In this document: positions 3,307 through 60,075 of the stretch, piece after piece
How positions within the stretch are numbered: position 1 is the stretch's first letter
How the letters are laid out: every line of letters begins with the position of its first letter
Origin: Bacteroidota bacterium
Lineage (GTDB): Bacteria; Bacteroidota; Bacteroidia; 2-12-FULL-35-15
Length of the DNA stretch: 64,000 bases
Assembly (NCBI GenBank): GCA_947479085.1
Contig: CANJYB010000002.1
Location: 1-64,000, forward strand
Reading direction: 5' to 3'
Position numbers and translations under genes: made by a program
Notes under the pieces: generated by a model
What the model was told of the DNA's origin: nothing
The model's input: the letters and a program-made list of their open reading frames with translations, nothing else
Database searches by the model: none

Positions 3307-3999
3307 ATGAAAATTTCAAAGAAAAGAAAAGCCGCTTTGGCTAAGTATGATGCAACTAAGGCTTACACAGTAGCCGAAGCATCAAAAATCATCAAAGACA
3401 TTACAACCGTAAAATTTGATGCATCCATCGATATCAGCGTACGTTTAGGAGTAGATCCGCGTAAAGCAAATCAAATGGTTCGTGGTTCAGTAACATTACC
3501 TCATGGTTCAGGAAAAACAATGCGTGTTCTTGCATTGGTAACACCGGATAAAGAAGCCGAAGCAAAAGCTGCAGGTGCTGATTTTGTCGGGTTGGATGAA
3601 TATATTGAGAAAATTAAAGGTGGCTGGACTGATGTGGATGTTATTATCACTATGCCTTCAGTAATGGGTAAAGTAGGTGCTTTAGGACGTGTGCTTGGAC
3701 CTCGTGGTTTAATGCCTAACCCTAAAACAGGTACTGTTACTATGGAAGTTGGTAAAGCAGTTACTGATTCTAAAGGTGGTAAAATAGATTTTAAAGTTGA
3801 CAAAGCTGGTATCGTTCAGGCATTGGTTGGTAAAGCTTCTTTTGATGCAAATAAAATTGCTGAAAATGCAAATGAAGTATTGACTACCATTATGAAATTG
3901 AAGCCTTCATCTGCTAAAGGAACTTATGTAAGAAGCGTTTATATCTCTTCTACCATGAGCCCGAGTATCCAGATTGATGCTAAATTTTTAGGACAATAA
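3307..3999 (+). CDS. rplA: 50S ribosomal protein L1
   Basis: L1 forms the mobile L1 stalk near the ribosomal E site and in many bacteria represses its own operon. The 230-residue product has the signature region [20 protein letters not shown] (about 119-138) and the conserved FDASIDI start of domain I. Spacing to rplK is 57 bp and to rplJ 101 bp. Confidence 0.99.
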
Positions 4000-14481: not shown

Positions 14482-14853
14482 TTGTTAAGCAAATGTATAA
14501 ATTTATTTTTATTTGATTTATGTGGTTTTTTGAATTTTTTTGAAAATTTATGCTATTTGACATATTTGGCTTATTTTCAATGTGTTGTATTTTATGCTAT
14601 TTGTGCTATTGGTCGGGATGGTGTTGCTATTGGTATTTTTGGTGTTGGTATTGGGGTTTTTGGTGTTGCTATTTTGATTTTTGGGGATGCTGGGGGTGTT
14701 TTTGGTGTTGGTATTTGGGTTTTTGGGGTTGCTATTGGGATTTATGGGGTTGGTATTTGGGTTTATGGTGTTGCTGTGCTGACTTATGATAATGCTATTG
14801 CTAAGGTATGGAATAGGTTTTCTATACTACAAAGTGCGGTTTATATTCTATAG
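14482..14853. other. Intergenic stretch between two orphan genes
   Basis: This is about 370 of the 456 bp between the minus-strand gene ending upstream at 14442 and the plus-strand lipoprotein at 14899. It is G/T-rich on the plus strand and contains the 21-bp array at 14620-14808. A 123-codon plus frame spans it and reads as heptapeptides (GVAIGIF, GVGIGVF...). I treat that as a by-product of a period divisible by three, since the frame has no recognisable start context and no homology I can name. Confidence 0.55.
14620..14808. repeat. 21-bp-period degenerate array 1
   Basis: Nine consecutive 21-bp units run without an indel. The common core is GGTGTTGCTATTGG, then 2-3 variable bases, then TTTTT. 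Units with GCTATT alternate with units with GGTATT for most of the array, giving a 42-bp higher-order period. T5 (A5 on the other strand) recurs every 21 bp, or two helical turns. The array lies 178 bp upstream of the start of the minus-strand 300-aa gene. Confidence 0.85.
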
Positions 14854-27363: not shown

Positions 27364-27636
27364 GGGGTTATTTAAGAGTTGAGTGTGAATATTGGGGAGT
27401 TGGGTGTGAATATTGGAAGGTGGGGAGTAAACTTTGGGTGGTATGATGTTCACTTTAAATGGTTGAGTATTCTCTTTGGATTGATTGGTGTTCTCTTTGG
27501 ATGGTGTGTTGTTAACTTGGAGTTGTTTGATTTTCACCTTTGATTGGTTGGTGTTCACTTTGGATTGTTTAAAGTTCACTTTAGGTGGTTTTTGGTTCAC
27601 TTTGTATAGTTTTTTATTCACTTTTGGGTGTTTTTG
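27364..27636. repeat. 21-bp-period degenerate array 2
   Basis: Thirteen 21-bp units run without indels. The clearest units start at 27448, 27469, 27490, 27511, 27532, 27553, 27574, 27595 and 27616 and open with GTTCACTTTGG or a close variant (ATTCTCTTTGG, GTTAACTTGG). The rest is G/T-rich and variable. The left-hand units (27385, 27406) have drifted to GTGAATATTGG. A minus-strand frame across it reads as heptapeptides (KQSKVNT, NQSKVKI), a consequence of the period. It lies upstream of the HTH gene. Confidence 0.87.
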
Positions 27637-35859: not shown

Positions 35860-36132
35860 GAAACGTCCAGAGGGAAGGTGAGAAAAATGAAAAGGAGAGG
35901 GGATAAAATGAGAAAGGGAGGAGTAAATTGAAGAAAGAGAGCAAGAAACAAGGGAAAGAGAGTCAATAAATGAAGAAAGAGAGGTAAGAAATGAAGAAAG
36001 AAGGGAGCTAATTGAGGAAAGAGGGCGATAAATTTTAGACGGAGAGAAAGAAAAATTAGAAAGAGAGGCATAAAAATTAGAAAGAGAGACATAAAAAGGG
36101 GAAAGAGCGACACGTAATTTGGGGGATAGATT
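35860..36132. repeat. 21-bp-period degenerate array 3
   Basis: Thirteen 21-bp units run without indels; unit starts are 35860, 35881, 35902 and so on to 36112. The pattern is an A-rich half (ATAAAAATTA, ATAAATGAAG) followed by GAAAGAGAG and two or three variable bases. The plus strand is nearly pure purine. It lies about 150 bp upstream of the T9SS pseudogene and about 70 bp upstream of its likely promoter. Confidence 0.87.
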
Positions 36133-54646: not shown

Positions 54647-55867
54647 TTATACATTTGCAATAATGTTCTGAAAAATAAAATCAACTTCTATAACATAGTC
54701 ATGGGTAATGAGGTAATAGCTTTCTGTTCCGGGTTTTTCGGTGGTTGTGTAAATTTGGCTCCTTACTATTTCCAAGGGCCGGGTAAAAAAAGTTTGCATC
54801 CGTTCTCCTTTTTTGCGAAACTGAAGGGTGGCGGAAGCGCCACCGGTTAAGGCAAATAGCACCTTCTGGTTTTCGGTGGTAAGGTAGTTTTCCGTTTGCG
54901 ATGCCTCCCTAAGCAGCAGGAGTAATGCTTCATCCCTGTTGGTACGCGGGGTTTCATAGCTCGAAAAACAAAAGCCATTGTTTTTTTCTGAATCATAATC
55001 TTCTGCATTTACATTGGCATAAGCCAAACTTCCGAACTTATCGGGTATGGGCAAAGACAACGTTTCTTCCAAAATAGTTTTCCATCGTGAAGGTATTGTT
55101 CGGGTGGAATTGCTTGCGGTTACAAGGCTTTCCATCACTTCTTTTATACCAATATTGTTTTTTATCAATACATAATCAATGGTTGCTTTTTTGTATTCTA
55201 TAGTATTTGCGACCACTGCATTGTCAAGTTCAGCCATATTAAATACGAACCCTGATGAATTTTGAACATAGCCCTCCACAGGTTGCAACAAAATTTCTTT
55301 GAAAAACAACACCTTGAAAAGATAGTTTAATGATGCACTTTCATTAGCAAAGAACTCCGCCCCATTAGCGTCAATTTGTTTGGCAGTCCGTTTAAGCCTC
55401 AATATCGTTTCTCTATGTTTTTTTATTTCATCTTCCGTTTGTATGCGGGTTTTTCTTAATTCTCTTGTTTCCTTTTTGTATTGTTCAATTATTTTATTTT
55501 GTGCATCATACTCCATATAAGTTATTTTTTGACTACTGTAATCAGAGCTTAAAACACGAAAACGATTATCCGCATCCTGTTCTCTTTCCAGCAGTTCTGT
55601 TTTCCAGTTTTCAACTTGTTGAATTTTGTGTTGCCTCACTTTGGTAATATCCGAAATTTCTTTTGCAGAGCATATCGAGTGCACACGAGCATCTGAATTT
55701 TTAAATTCCTTCGATAGCCAGGCTTCGGCCTCCGCCTCTGTTTTCCAGCCAAGTTTTACGCCAAACTCCTGTTTGGCAATTTGCAAAGGCGAAATAACAT
55801 ACAAATCGTCAACAGTTAAGTTTTTTATCAGGTTTTCCAGTTGTGTTTTTATTTCGGTAAGAGTCAT
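54647..55867 (-). CDS. Unrecognised 406-aa coiled-coil protein
   Basis: I do not recognise this protein. It is soluble, with no signal peptide. Residues about 1-70 are a helical domain (ISPLQIAKQEFGVKLGWKTE). Residues about 70-165 form a long charged coiled coil (QVENWKTELLEREQDADN, KKETRELRKTRIQTEDEIKKHR). The rest is mixed, with a beta-rich end (FALTGGASATLQFRKKGERM, YYLITHDYVIEVDFIF). It stands alone in a repeat-rich island, with array 4 beginning 95 bp upstream. The 5' region carries TATGGTAAAAGTAAC at about 55901-55915, resembling the array motif. Confidence 0.8.
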   Translation of the reverse strand: MTLTEIKTQLENLIKNLTVDDLYVISPLQIAKQEFGVKLGWKTEAEAEAWLSKEFKNSDARVHSICSAKEISDITKVRQHKIQQVENWKTELLEREQDADNRFRVLSSDYSSQKITYMEYDAQNKIIEQYKKETRELRKTRIQTEDEIKKHRETILRLKRTAKQIDANGAEFFANESASLNYLFKVLFFKEILLQPVEGYVQNSSGFVFNMAELDNAVVANTIEYKKATIDYVLIKNNIGIKEVMESLVTASNSTRTIPSRWKTILEETLSLPIPDKFGSLAYANVNAEDYDSEKNNGFCFSSYETPRTNRDEALLLLLREASQTENYLTTENQKVLFALTGGASATLQFRKKGERMQTFFTRPLEIVRSQIYTTTEKPGTESYYLITHDYVIEVDFIFQNIIANV

Positions 55868-55961
55868 TGATTTTAAAGTTTATTAGAATTCTACATAATA
55901 TGTATGGTAAAAGTAACAGTTTTTTTGGCAACCCGTTTCAAAAATTCCTGAAAAAAGCCGG

Positions 55962-56255
55962 TTTTTGTCCATTTTTATTTTTTTAAGAGGTAAAAACGAC
56001 TAATTTTTGCCATAGTAAACTTTTATTATAGGCAAAACGGAGTGATTTATACCATACTAAACTTTTACTATAGGCAAAACGGAGTGATTTTTACCATACT
56101 AAACTTTTACTATAGGTAAAACCGAGTGATTTTTGCCATACCAAACTTTTACTATAGGTAAAATCGATTAATTTTTGCCATACTAATCTTTTACTATAGG
56201 TAAAATTGATTAATTTGAGTCATCACAAACTTTTACTATGGAAAAAACCAAGTTT
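55962..56255. repeat. 21/42-bp-period degenerate array 4
   Basis: Fourteen 21-bp units form seven 42-bp pairs without indels. Unit a is TTTTT(G/A)CCATACTAAAC plus TTTT. Unit b is ACTATAGG(T/C)AAAA plus CCGAGTGA or TCGATTAA. Within a pair, TTTTACC and GGTAAAA are inverted, so each 42-bp repeat can form a hairpin. Both ends are more diverged than the centre. Stops occur in all six frames, so it is not coding. It lies between the divergent 406-aa gene and the T9SS cargo gene. Confidence 0.9.
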
Positions 56256-56395
56256 TTTGCCTTCTCCAAATTAAGAAAGTGATAAATAATAGTTTTTAAG
56301 AAGCCTTAAATAAAAATATTTTGAAATTGTTATTTTATTCAATTTGTGAAATAAGGAAATATGTTTTTGGGATAATTTCAGACTTAATTTTTTAT

Positions 56396-56423
56396 TTGAT
56401 TACTATATATATATGTATATTTG
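56396..56423 (+). promoter_or_regulatory. Promoter of the T9SS cargo gene
   Basis: TTG at 56396-56398, a 17-bp spacer, then TATATTTG at 56416-56423, 28 bp before the ATG at 56452. It overlaps an upstream ATG at 56413, which therefore cannot be the start. Confidence 0.6.
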
Positions 56424-56451
56424 TTTAACCAAACCAAAAAAACATTTAATC

Positions 56452-58089
56452 ATGAGAAAATATTTACTAATCAGTTTGCTTGCTATAGTTAGCTTTGGAG
56501 CAACTGGGCAGGTGACATTTCAGAAAACCATAAGCGGAAACACTTCTGGCTTTGGAAAATCTGTATTACAAGCCAGCGATGGAGGTTATGTAATAGCCGG
56601 AAATGTGCAAAGTGTCAGTTTAGATTCAAACAATATATATTTAATAAAAACAAATTCCATTGGTACAGTAATATGGACAAAAACATTTGATGGTGTAGGA
56701 AACGATGAAGCAAATAAAGTTGAAAAAACAAATGATGGCGGATTTATTATTTCCGGAAATACAAATAGTTTTGGTGCCGGAGGTTATGATGTGTATGCAA
56801 TTAAGACTGATTCTATAGGTGATACTCTATGGACAAAAACTTATGGTGGGGTTAATGATGAGGGAGGTTATATAGCGAATGTAAATTCATTTACCAGTTA
56901 TATTAAACAAACCACCGATGGTGGTTACATTATTTCAAGTTCTACAAAGAGTTTTGGACATGGGGGTAATGATATATATTTAATAAAGACAAACACAAGT
57001 GGTGATACTTTATGGACAAGAACATTCGGAAGTAATAATGATGATTATGGCGGTGCTGTTTTGCAAACAGCCGAAGGCGGATACATTGTTACAGGTTCTA
57101 CCTGGGATGCCCTTTCTCAGGGCTTTAATGAATGTTTAATTAAAATTAATGCATCAGGAAATATTGTTTGGTCTTCAGGAGTGGGAAATGCAGACGGTAA
57201 TATGTTTGCAGCTACTTCCATTTTTCAAACTACAGATGGAGGATATGTTGCCGTAGGTAATGCCAGTGATGCTCTTACCGGATACACATTTTATATCACC
57301 AAATCAGATAGTGCAGGGAATGTGGTTTGGGGCAAAGGCTATTATTTGGGTACATGCGGTGTTTCAATGTGTGGGGCATCAACAGCTTTATCAAATGGTA
57401 ATTTCATCATTCCTTGCATTGTAAATAGAATTGATACGGGCTTAAACTATAGCAGTAATGCTTTTTTACTAAAGGTAGACAATATTGGAAATCAGGTTTG
57501 GGCAAAAAGTTATGGTAAATTATTTGAATGGGAAGGTACATATCAGGCCGAACAAACAAATGATGGAGGTTGTATAATTATTGGCTATTCTCTTTCGGGT
57601 GCTCATTCTGATACTTATCTAATAAAAACAGATTCGTTTGGTAGTAGTGGTTGTAATGAATATTCTGAAAATTCCGTTCCGGCAACTTCCCCCCCGAACG
57701 TAACGGTAACCCCTCTTTTTTCTTCCGGAAGTGGATGTATAGTTCATTCCGCTCCGGCACAGGTTAGCGCTCTTAGTTTAACAGAAAATAATTATTGTTC
57801 AAATGTTGGTATTTATGAAACGAAAAATGAAGCTTTTATTACTATTTATCCAAACCCTTTTTCTTCCCAAACCACAATTACCTTTAGTGAAGAGCAAAAA
57901 CACAGAACCATCTTAATCACCGATGTATTAGGAAACATCATCCAGCAACAAACCACCACTAACAAACAACTTACCCTTGATATGAGCGGAGGGGCAAAGG
58001 GGATTTATTTTGTAAGGGTGATGGATGGTTCGGCAAGCTCACCAACAGAAAAGAAAAATGTAGTGAACAGGAAGATAGTGGTGGAGTAG
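56452..58089 (+). CDS. T9SS-secreted repeat protein
   Basis: From the ATG at 56452 the protein is 545 residues. It has a signal peptide (MRKYLLISLLAIVSFGATGQ) and about seven repeats of roughly 50 residues with DGGYVIAGN...IYLIKTNSIGTVIWTKTF, a propeller-type array. The C-terminal type IX sorting domain covers about the last 80 residues (IYPNPFSSQTTITF ... LDMSGGAKGIYFVRV ... NRKIVVE). It should be exported by Sec, then by the T9SS, and attached to or released from the surface. The broken gene at 36252-37741 is a relative. Confidence 0.92.
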   Translation: MRKYLLISLLAIVSFGATGQVTFQKTISGNTSGFGKSVLQASDGGYVIAGNVQSVSLDSNNIYLIKTNSIGTVIWTKTFDGVGNDEANKVEKTNDGGFIISGNTNSFGAGGYDVYAIKTDSIGDTLWTKTYGGVNDEGGYIANVNSFTSYIKQTTDGGYIISSSTKSFGHGGNDIYLIKTNTSGDTLWTRTFGSNNDDYGGAVLQTAEGGYIVTGSTWDALSQGFNECLIKINASGNIVWSSGVGNADGNMFAATSIFQTTDGGYVAVGNASDALTGYTFYITKSDSAGNVVWGKGYYLGTCGVSMCGASTALSNGNFIIPCIVNRIDTGLNYSSNAFLLKVDNIGNQVWAKSYGKLFEWEGTYQAEQTNDGGCIIIGYSLSGAHSDTYLIKTDSFGSSGCNEYSENSVPATSPPNVTVTPLFSSGSGCIVHSAPAQVSALSLTENNYCSNVGIYETKNEAFITIYPNPFSSQTTITFSEEQKHRTILITDVLGNIIQQQTTTNKQLTLDMSGGAKGIYFVRVMDGSASSPTEKKNVVNRKIVVE

Positions 58090-58097
58090 AAATAATA

Positions 58098-58190
58098 ACC
58101 GCAGAGAAAAAGGAGTAAAACGCAGAGAGCCGCTGAGAATATTATCTCAGCGGCTCTCTGCGTTTATTTCTCATGAGGCCTCTGCGGTAA
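58098..58190. repeat. Long perfect palindrome after the T9SS gene
   Basis: ACCGCAGAG and CTCTGCGGT form outer arms. The inner arms AACGCAGAGAGCCGCTGAGA and TCTCAGCGGCTCTCTGCGTT are perfectly complementary around a short AT loop. It is a MITE- or REP-like element of the CGCAGAG type and may act as a terminator. Confidence 0.8.
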
Positions 58191-58309: not shown

Positions 58310-59752
58310 ATGGAAACCTTAAAGAGAACCAAAGTAAAAGACCTGCTGCAATCAACAGCTTATGGAACCGAAGTAACAGTAAAAGGATGGGTACGTACCT
58401 TTCGTAATAACCAGTTTATAGCCATCAACGATGGAAGTACCATCAATAATATACAGGCCGTTGTCGATTTTAATACTGCAGACGAAGCATTGTTAAAACG
58501 CCTTACCACAGGTGCCGCCATCAGTGTTACAGGAGAGTTAATAGAATCGCTTGGCAAAGGACAAAAAGTAGAGGTGAAGGTTAAAACACTGGAAATACTT
58601 GGAGATAGCGATGCAGAAAAGTTTCCTCTTCAGCCAAAGAAACATAGTTTGGAATTTCTGAGAGAGATAGCTCATCTTCGTTTCCGCACCAATACGTTCA
58701 ATGCAGTGTTCAAGGTACGTCATGCATTAGCCTATGCCATACATAAGTTTTTTAATGACAAAGGATTTGTTTACCTGCATACCCCTGTTATTACCGCCAG
58801 CGATGCCGAAGGAGCAGGAGAGATGTTCCGTGTTACTGCTTTAGACTTTAATAACCCGCCACGAACCGAAACGGGTGAAGTGGATTTTAAACAGGACTTT
58901 TTTGGCAAAAGCACCAACCTTACTGTTTCCGGTCAGCTGGAAGCCGAGTTGGCAGCAATGGCATTTGGGGAAGTATATACTTTTGGTCCTACTTTCCGTG
59001 CAGAGAATTCAAACACCACTCGTCACCTTGCTGAGTTCTGGATGATAGAACCGGAAGTAGCATTCAATGATTTGAACGATAACATGAACCTTGCAGAGGA
59101 ATTATTAAAGTATGTAATCAAACATGCTTTGGAAACCTGCGGGGATGAAATAGAATTTTTGAAGAACCGTTTGCTGGAAGAAGAAAAAACAAAACCGATG
59201 GACGAGCGTTCGGAACTGGACCTGACAGCCAAGTTAAATTTCTGTTTGGAAAACGATTTTGAACGATTGACTTATACAGAGGCAATCGAGATTCTGAAAA
59301 ACTCAAACCCGAACAAGAAAAAGAAATTCAAATACCTCATCGATAAATGGGGTGCAGACTTACAAAGCGAGCACGAACGTTACCTGGTAGAAAAACATTT
59401 TAAGAAACCGGTTATACTTACTGATTATCCTAAAGAGATAAAAGCATTTTACATGCGCCAGAACGATGACGGTACAACAGTAAGAGCAATGGATATTTTA
59501 TTTCCCGGCATTGGCGAAATAATAGGAGGTTCGCAAAGGGAAGAAAGACTGGACCTGCTGGAAAAACGAATGGGCGAAATGCACATCCCTGTTGATGAAT
59601 TATACTGGTACCTGGATACCCGCAGGTTTGGTACCGCTCCTCATGCAGGGTTTGGCTTAGGATTCGAAAGGCTGGTTTTATTTGTAACCGGTATGACAAA
59701 TATCAGGGATGTAATTCCATTTCCGAGAGCACCAAAAACGGCAGAGTTTTAG
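58310..59752 (+). CDS. asnS: Asparaginyl-tRNA synthetase
   Basis: This class IIb synthetase has 480 residues. The N-terminal OB-fold anticodon-binding domain covers about 18-100 ([21 protein letters not shown]). The catalytic core has motif 2 ([19 protein letters not shown]), the Asn-specific FWMIEPE region and motif 3 ([15 protein letters not shown], about 450-464), ending [10 protein letters not shown]. The last codons and the 3' flank are copied twice more in tandem just downstream. Confidence 0.98.
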
Positions 59753-60075
59753 AACAGGAAAGCCACGCAAAGGCGCAAAGAACGCAAAGGAAATAGTAAG
59801 TATAACCTCTGCGTTCTTTACCTTTCATAGTTTCTTTTATTTTCCACGAGCACCAAAAACAGCAGAGTTTTAGAACAGGAATGTCACGCAAAGGCGCAAA
59901 GTTCGCAAAGGAAATAATAAGTATACCCTCTGCGTTCTTTACGTTTCATAGTTTCTTTTATTTTCCACGAGCACTAAAGACGGCAGAGTTTTAGAACAGG
60001 AATGTCTCGCAAAGGCGCAAAGAATACAAAGGAAATAGTAAGTATTATCTCTGCGTTCTTTGCGTCTTTGCGTGA
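59720..60075. repeat. Three tandem 121-bp repeats including the asnS 3' end
   Basis: The segment from the last asnS codons (GAGCACCAAAAACGGCAGAG, 59728 on) through CACGCAAAGGCGCAAAG and CTCTGCGTTCTTTACC recurs at a spacing of exactly 121 bp, with anchors at 59729, 59850 and 59971. The third copy is cut short and ends in TTTGCGTGACA. Copies differ at a few percent of positions. The CGCAAAGGCGCAAAG...CTTTGCG arms also make each copy a hairpin. The 392-bp gap to rpoN holds nothing else except a TACTTTTG element at 60110-60117. Confidence 0.85.

Follow-up and report, generated by a model that had tools for sequence, protein, structure and literature searches.

The window analysed here, 64,000 nucleotides of DNA from a Bacteroidota bacterium, contains a row of 42-bp tandem repeats, array 4, between two divergent genes (Table 1). 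What is this array, and to which of its neighbours does it belong? The initial annotation saw it as filling the divergent gap between an orphan gene, which it took to be a coiled-coil gene, and a T9SS cargo gene, and the position between these two genes is confirmed: the product of the orphan gene has no Pfam match, and the gene on the other side encodes a C-terminal sorting domain. The period of 42 bp also stands, but the extent proposed there (55962–56255, seven copies) starts about 26 bp too early and counts seven copies where there are about 6.6. TRF reports 83% matches and 1% indels for array 4. At lag 42 the whole array is 0.84 identical to itself; at lag 21 the value falls to 0.25, so that the unit contains no 21-bp sub-repeat. 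The best lag identity over 200 bp of the gap is 0.88, against a maximum of 0.465 in 200 rounds of shuffling (two-base blocks, lags 8 to 129). Five consecutive 42-bp steps are free of indels, and the neighbouring units in these five pairs agree at 33 to 41 of 42 positions. The array is closed to translation in all six frames, as the initial annotation held, with 6, 11, 5, 3, 6 and 13 stop codons. It occurs once in its own genome, and an Rfam scan of 55000–57400 returned 0 matches at the gathering threshold. The word TATGGTAAAAGTAAC, pointed out earlier near the 5′ end of the orphan gene, is present at 55903–55917; it falls within an inverted near-copy of a word of the array-4 unit that on its own is not significant against shuffled flank (z 1.7).

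Table 1. Features of the window around array 4 and related arrays
Feature	Position	Strand	Basis and remarks
Type A array-associated gene, 300 aa	13540..14442	-	Next to rpoC (rpoC recognised by eye); no Pfam match
Array 1, period 63/21	14618..14773	.	TRF; 176 bp 5′ of type A gene
Array 2, period 42/21	27431..27624	.	TRF
Array 3, period 42/21	35906..36107	.	TRF
Orphan gene, 406 aa	54647..55867	-	Array 4 lies 121 bp 5′ of its start
Inverted near-copy (14/16) of unit word 56084–56099	55902..55917	-	Repeat search; between array 4 and orphan start
Array 4, 6.6 tandem copies of a 42-bp (2 × 21) unit	55988..56261	.	TRF
TATATTTG, promoter word between array 4 and T9SS start codon	56416..56423	+	Sequence position
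T9SS cargo-type gene (Por_Secre_tail)	56452..58089	+	PF18962, E 2.2e-13, C-terminal sorting domain

Array 4 is a member of a genome-wide class of non-coding tandem arrays that advance in steps of 21 bp or a multiple of it (21n) and have mostly unrelated sequences. In 848,334 bp, a fifth of the genome, 45 of the 70 tandem arrays of 61 bp or more listed by TRF have periods divisible by 21. Merging neighbours leaves 42 arrays, which extrapolates to about 200–210 in the whole 4.28 Mb genome. A lag scan restricted to DNA outside ORFs of 200 aa or more gave 69, 60, 40, 40, 24 and 31 intergenic segments at lags 21, 42, 63, 84, 105 and 126; among the remaining lags between 6 and 69 none gave more than 8 (lag 7). 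Few pairs of loci have matching units. The step is 21 in 360 of 382 pairs of similar neighbouring units, with 1,564 mismatches and nine steps off by 1–3 bp; the 76 arrays counted were preselected for 21n periodicity, and the figure thus speaks for few indels and is not an unbiased estimate of the step. Array 4 belongs to this class because 42 is 2 × 21 and because of its neighbours, and although many members have a 21-bp sub-repeat, others besides array 4, for instance the arrays in locus L153 and at L135 1838–2048, show only multiples above 21.

Three simple sources of the periodicity were considered and rejected. An origin in heptamers is contradicted by the lack of signal at lag 7. Phased A-tract curvature is not the reason, because the half-turn lags 10 and 11, around the 10.5-bp helical repeat, lie below expectation. 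Coding of seven-residue repeats fails for array 4, which is closed in six frames, and no codon-position pattern of substitutions is seen in 75 arrays of the class (mean z −0.35; above 2 in 3 of 75); long ORFs do run across other arrays, because a 21-bp unit without a stop stays open.

Many of the arrays adjoin genes of about 170 to 310 aa, which we sorted into families A to D. Representatives of all four (five of A, three of B, two each of C and D) have no Pfam match at the curated score, the nearest being one type A protein at 31.9 bits against the 32.3 bits set for CarboxypepD_reg. Eight proteins covering A to D and the orphan came nowhere near a curated score in NCBIfam and gave weak PHROG hits only, and ten proteins of the orphan and families A to D had no match in PADLOC. 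A D protein is predicted to consist of long helices followed by a fibronectin-III-like domain (pLDDT 92.5, pTM 0.54); no relative of it was found by sequence in the PDB, and none among phage, plasmid and viral sequences with one query protein each. Profile comparison gives probabilities of 3.9% for C–D, 2.8% for B–D, 1.1% for A–D and 0.1% for C–B, with nominal p-values of 0.011 to 0.047 for the A, B and C profiles against D. The families are thus mutually dissimilar in sequence, and they may still be distant kin that descend jointly in a simple way.

The pairing of array and gene recurs well beyond the genome in which it was seen. Family D, first noticed at the asnS locus of a relative, G015, is present in 9 of 36 genomes of the genus and, across the class, in 26 of 395 genomes and 12 of 196 genera. 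A 21n array accompanies 21 of 26 D loci, always on the 5′ side; in four of the five loci lacking one, the contig ends no more than 161 bp upstream. Outside the genus, 14 of 22 fetched D loci have an array at a threshold lowered from 0.62 to 0.60, and of the other eight, three begin within 64 bp of a contig end. Among 30 fetched loci of family C, which is found in 9 of 247 genomes, 29 have a 5′ array. Family B, present in 15 of 247 genomes, has an array at 23 of 30 fetched loci, and here both sides are used: 13 arrays lie 5′ of the gene and 11 lie 3′. For B and C, sides were assigned by locus half and are therefore approximate where a locus is truncated. The control periods 19, 20, 22 and 23 are found at 0 to 2 of 30 loci for B and C and at 2 of 26 D loci, and none of 30 asnS control loci has a 21n array. 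As the families were noticed beside arrays in our own genome (G000) and in G015, the G000 loci and L153, the G015 discovery locus, are not independent; leaving out G000, the counts are 20 of 25 for D, 21 of 22 for C and 20 of 27 for B.

At G027:C55, G050:C28, G238:C67 and C68, G004:C51 and G093:C72, a D gene sits no more than about 65 bp from the end of a contig. Assemblies may break at arrays, and array counts in draft genomes may accordingly be too low.

Arrays and family D also go together at the level of whole genomes. In 40 stretches chosen by position or by asnS and not by arrays or families, we found 10 21n arrays in 178 kb of D-bearing genomes of the genus (counting G016, which has a partial D match only) and 1 in 526 kb of D-less genomes. 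The four control periods together give 3 and 0 in the same stretches; outside ORFs of 150 aa or more, the 21n arrays number 7 and 0.

To which gene does array 4 belong? Of the 36 genomes of the genus, only its own yielded the orphan gene, whose product matches none of the profiles of A to D. One relative turned up among the 395 genomes of the class that were searched, in G152: it is co-linear with the orphan at 26% identity, both begin MTLTEIK, and it follows immediately, on the same strand, after an array and a D gene. This single relative is a weak point of the sequence link between the orphan and the modules, as we call the pairs of array and gene. A second tie comes from position. T9SS-type genes stand beside asnS in G015, G005 and G004 (the contig of G005 stops 148 bp ahead of its T9SS match). 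In G015 the order is array, D gene, T9SS gene, asnS. In G004 a type A gene takes the place of the orphan in the same orientation (profile E 8.7e-24), with a 42-step array 114 bp 5′ of it (gene and array together at L135 795–2048), followed by an HTH-like gene, three T9SS-type genes and asnS. Hence three genomes have three different modules 5′ of the T9SS–asnS block: orphan and array 4, type A gene and array, and array and D gene. The T9SS gene, for its part, has its own promoter word, TATATTTG, which we take to be a Bacteroidetes-type −7 promoter word; in ordinary genes of this genome the general form of the word, TAnnTTTG, peaks at −60 to −15. Because of the G152 relative, the modules at the orphan's place in G004 and G015 and this separate promoter word, we assign array 4 to the orphan gene as an array–gene module, an assignment that is very probably right. 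The unit of the G004 array contains a TTCTAATATTAGAA palindrome.

The second place at which modules differ is the stretch behind rpoC. An array is present there at 6 of 30 loci in the genus, all six in D-bearing genomes, 4 of the 30 having under 700 bp of downstream sequence and no array; the D-bearing genomes G005 and G027 have no array behind rpoC. The contents are a type A gene with array 1 in our genome and an array with a D gene in G015, and the stretch looks as if it were an exchange site. The arrays downstream of rpoC at L293, L292, L295, L296, L297 and L299 have neighbours that differ from one relative to the next.

How might such an array work? Twenty-one base pairs are two turns of B-DNA, and the step of array 4 is four turns. 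The reading that we prefer, with a probability of about 0.45, is that the array is a helically phased, protein-binding stretch of DNA, in the case of array 4 attached to the orphan gene. It would act as DNA, offering a row of sites on one face of the helix every two turns (every four in array 4); a protein would load cooperatively along these sites, and the loaded protein would control or mark the neighbouring module gene. The class, its steady step, its links to several gene families, the co-occurrence across genomes and the two ties of the orphan to modules are what we observe; that a protein binds, which protein it would be and what would follow is what we infer from them. A phased DNA scaffold explains a steady step with free sequence and the closeness to module genes, and it is unhurt by missing covariation (see below). 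Since most arrays have no site in common, a shared protein that reads sequence is unlikely, and binding would be structural or would be carried out by a cognate protein at each locus. Homogenisation by recombination could also keep the step fixed, and some arrays of our genome adjoin ordinary genes. The initial annotation had favoured operator sites for a dimeric regulator; the steady step of 21 bp is compatible with such sites, and the dyad symmetry that they call for does not rise above chance in array 4.

Taken more broadly, and with the same tentativeness, the arrays may represent an undescribed kind of module spread over several families of Bacteroidia, in which an array defined by its spacing is paired with a gene of unknown family, the pairs are exchanged between fixed places of the chromosome, and the array serves as a phased nucleoprotein scaffold independent of sequence. 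Array 4 with the orphan would then be an example of such a pair.

A less probable alternative makes the arrays the side products, or the exchange sites, of a mobile or cassette-type process by which DNA is duplicated in steps of 21 bp; the genes would then be cassettes that come and go there. The differing modules at one place, next to the T9SS–asnS block and behind rpoC, are what such a process would leave. Inverted units occur at the edges of 16 of our 42 arrays, and two dispersed elements carry an array with its flanks to two places each: one of about 420 bp, 91% identical between L042 3451–3872 and L034 19514–19934 (arrays C17 and C2), and one of about 510 bp, 80% identical, at L032 5545–6053 with a relative in L035 (arrays C13 and C19). 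An inspection by eye of sequence starts in 11 module regions, however, revealed no recurring recombinase; one region, L276, carries a transposase gene of the IS1595 type at a distance of 2.2 kb from its D gene. Duplication alone also leaves the constant 5′ placement at C and D genes unexplained. A cassette process may work together with a DNA scaffold, or with the RNA considered below.

Within the L042 copy of the shorter element, the last unit and an inverted copy form a perfect 42-bp palindrome (3755–3796), and in the longer element of L032 and L035 oppositely oriented units stand on either side of a small central hairpin.

Unlikely, in our judgement, is that the arrays are transcribed and act as RNA, as a 5′ leader or as a separate repeat RNA in the manner of type III toxin–antitoxin systems. 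Array 4 gives this idea little encouragement. Each of its repeats had been described in the initial annotation as an imperfect hairpin, but the unit is no more symmetric than random intergenic sequence: its dyad z is 1.14, not above chance, and among up to 400 random intergenic 42-mers sampled from the same genome, 25.5% equal or exceed it in symmetry. A dyad z of 3.1 to 3.4 under a laxer null was removed by this stricter one. Earlier fold z-scores of −3.6 and −4.8 stem from shuffles that destroy the periodicity; against column-permuted 21-bp units, a scheme that splits the 42-bp unit in two, the values are −0.61 and 0.13. With neither fold nor strict dyad score above chance, a hairpin or dyad was rejected as the defining feature of array 4.

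For the class at large the evidence on RNA is more divided. The arrays of C and D genes lie 5′ of the gene, where a leader would be. Compared with column-permuted controls on the given strand, 9 of 34 D arrays and 15 of 42 arrays of our genome have a fold z below −2, and D arrays are modestly more dyad-symmetric than random intergenic 21-mers (p 9e-5; p 0.09 for our own arrays). Between positions −80 and −10, 2 of 54 module genes have the housekeeping word TAnnTTTG, compared with 67 of 213 ordinary genes (p 7e-6), the ordinary genes coming from our genome only and the module genes from several, namely from 27 of 35 array-bearing D loci (without L168, L169, L177, L178, L192, L197, L202 and L203) and 27 of 30 C loci (without L217, L229 and L231); within 150 bp, 4 of 29 D genes have it. 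As the word is scarce between array and gene, transcription may start upstream of the array. Upstream of D arrays, on the other hand, it is not clearly enriched (8 of 29 sense and 6 of 29 antisense, against a background of 0.21). Compensatory changes at dyad pairs number 101 where 104.8 are expected (77 of 126 arrays), and the arrays have no strong strand bias, with purine fractions of 0.527 and 0.531. Arrays of B genes often lie 3′ of the gene, and their presence on both sides suits DNA better than a leader RNA. The structured RNA that the initial annotation had offered as its other reading is therefore not supported, given the lack of compensatory changes and of an Rfam match and the arrays 3′ of B genes.

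It is very improbable that array 4 is instead an upstream regulatory element of the T9SS cargo gene. That gene is 152–190 bp away with its own promoter word in between, several other arrays flank genes whose ends resemble sorting domains by eye, and 21n arrays of different sequence lie 5′ of the T9SS block in G015 and G004 as well. But in these two genomes a D gene and an HTH-like gene, respectively, stand between array and T9SS gene, and DNA of array 4 itself has no convincing counterpart among the best ten candidates per genome in the relatives, G015 and G004 included (the best match, E 5e-4 over 40 bp, is in G015). Enrichment at arrays of the broad gene cluster containing the sorting-domain-like genes is also weak, with 12 against 7.5 expected. 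A neutral minisatellite without function, for which unrelated units at different loci and the uniqueness of array 4 in its genome might speak, is scarcely credible, given one step length with few indels in unrelated units and the close association with particular genes in different families within the class.

Several known systems combine tandem repeats with a neighbouring gene. Type III toxin–antitoxin systems (ToxIN, CptIN, TenpIN) have a short tandem array, usually 5′ of a small protein gene, and array 4 likewise adjoins a protein gene on its 5′ side, 121 bp from the orphan. Unlike these systems, however, the arrays described here step in multiples of 21 bp, have mostly unrelated units without covariation and in part lie 3′ of the gene; D and the orphan have no Pfam match to the toxins ToxN, CptN or TenpN and no PADLOC match, and the predicted D structure of helices and a fibronectin-III-like domain does not suggest a known RNase. 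The iteron arrays of plasmid origins are tandem units of about two helical turns next to a gene, and in all three respects our arrays resemble them. But array 4 has chromosomal neighbours (tatC, asnS, rpoN), and 42 arrays occur in a fifth of one genome; the array-4 neighbours that were scanned (the orphan, the T9SS cargo gene and asnS) include no replication initiator. CRISPR arrays share the regular step with array 4 and have unique spacers between their repeats, whereas array 4 has no unique spacers and its entire 42-bp units are alike. We know of no close precedent in bacterial chromosomes for repeats that retain their spacing but vary freely in sequence. The intergenic TAACTGA heptamer repeats, which are numerous and occur partly in Bacteroidetes, lie 5′ of genes and share one common 7-bp word (PMC4679880); in our arrays the words vary by locus, the step is 21 and lag 7 gives no signal. 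A literature search whose reach mostly excluded subscription papers and bioRxiv preprints found no description of 21n arrays, and provisionally both the class and its pairing with genes look undescribed.

Because the class pairs with several protein families whose representatives have no curated match in the libraries searched, it gives a handle on many uncharacterised genes, and it raises the question of what could recognise DNA at 21-bp intervals irrespective of its sequence. The pairing also occurs in some distant relatives outside the genus. A pattern scan of named genomes, from which our own was possibly left out, gave 11 loci with one match each. Three matches fall within 21n arrays, in a Methylococcaceae MAG (L282), in Sphingobacteriales TSM_CSS 53 (L288) and in a Bacteroidetes MAG (L290); one, L289, falls in a weak 21n array, and the remaining matches look like chance. 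In the L282 and L288 stretches no relative of A to D was found at E 0.1. L290 has its array at 876–1085 and a relative of family B (E 2.8e-31) about 6.5 kb away, from about 7568 on. The arrays of the other two lie at L288 1–471 and L282 73–387, and a 193-aa gene of L288 starts 116 bp behind its array. In the window itself, further repeats lie beyond the T9SS gene: a long, near-perfect palindrome between it and asnS (about 58119–58164), and, in the interval from asnS to rpoN, a 121-bp repeat present in 2.8 copies (59720–60061).
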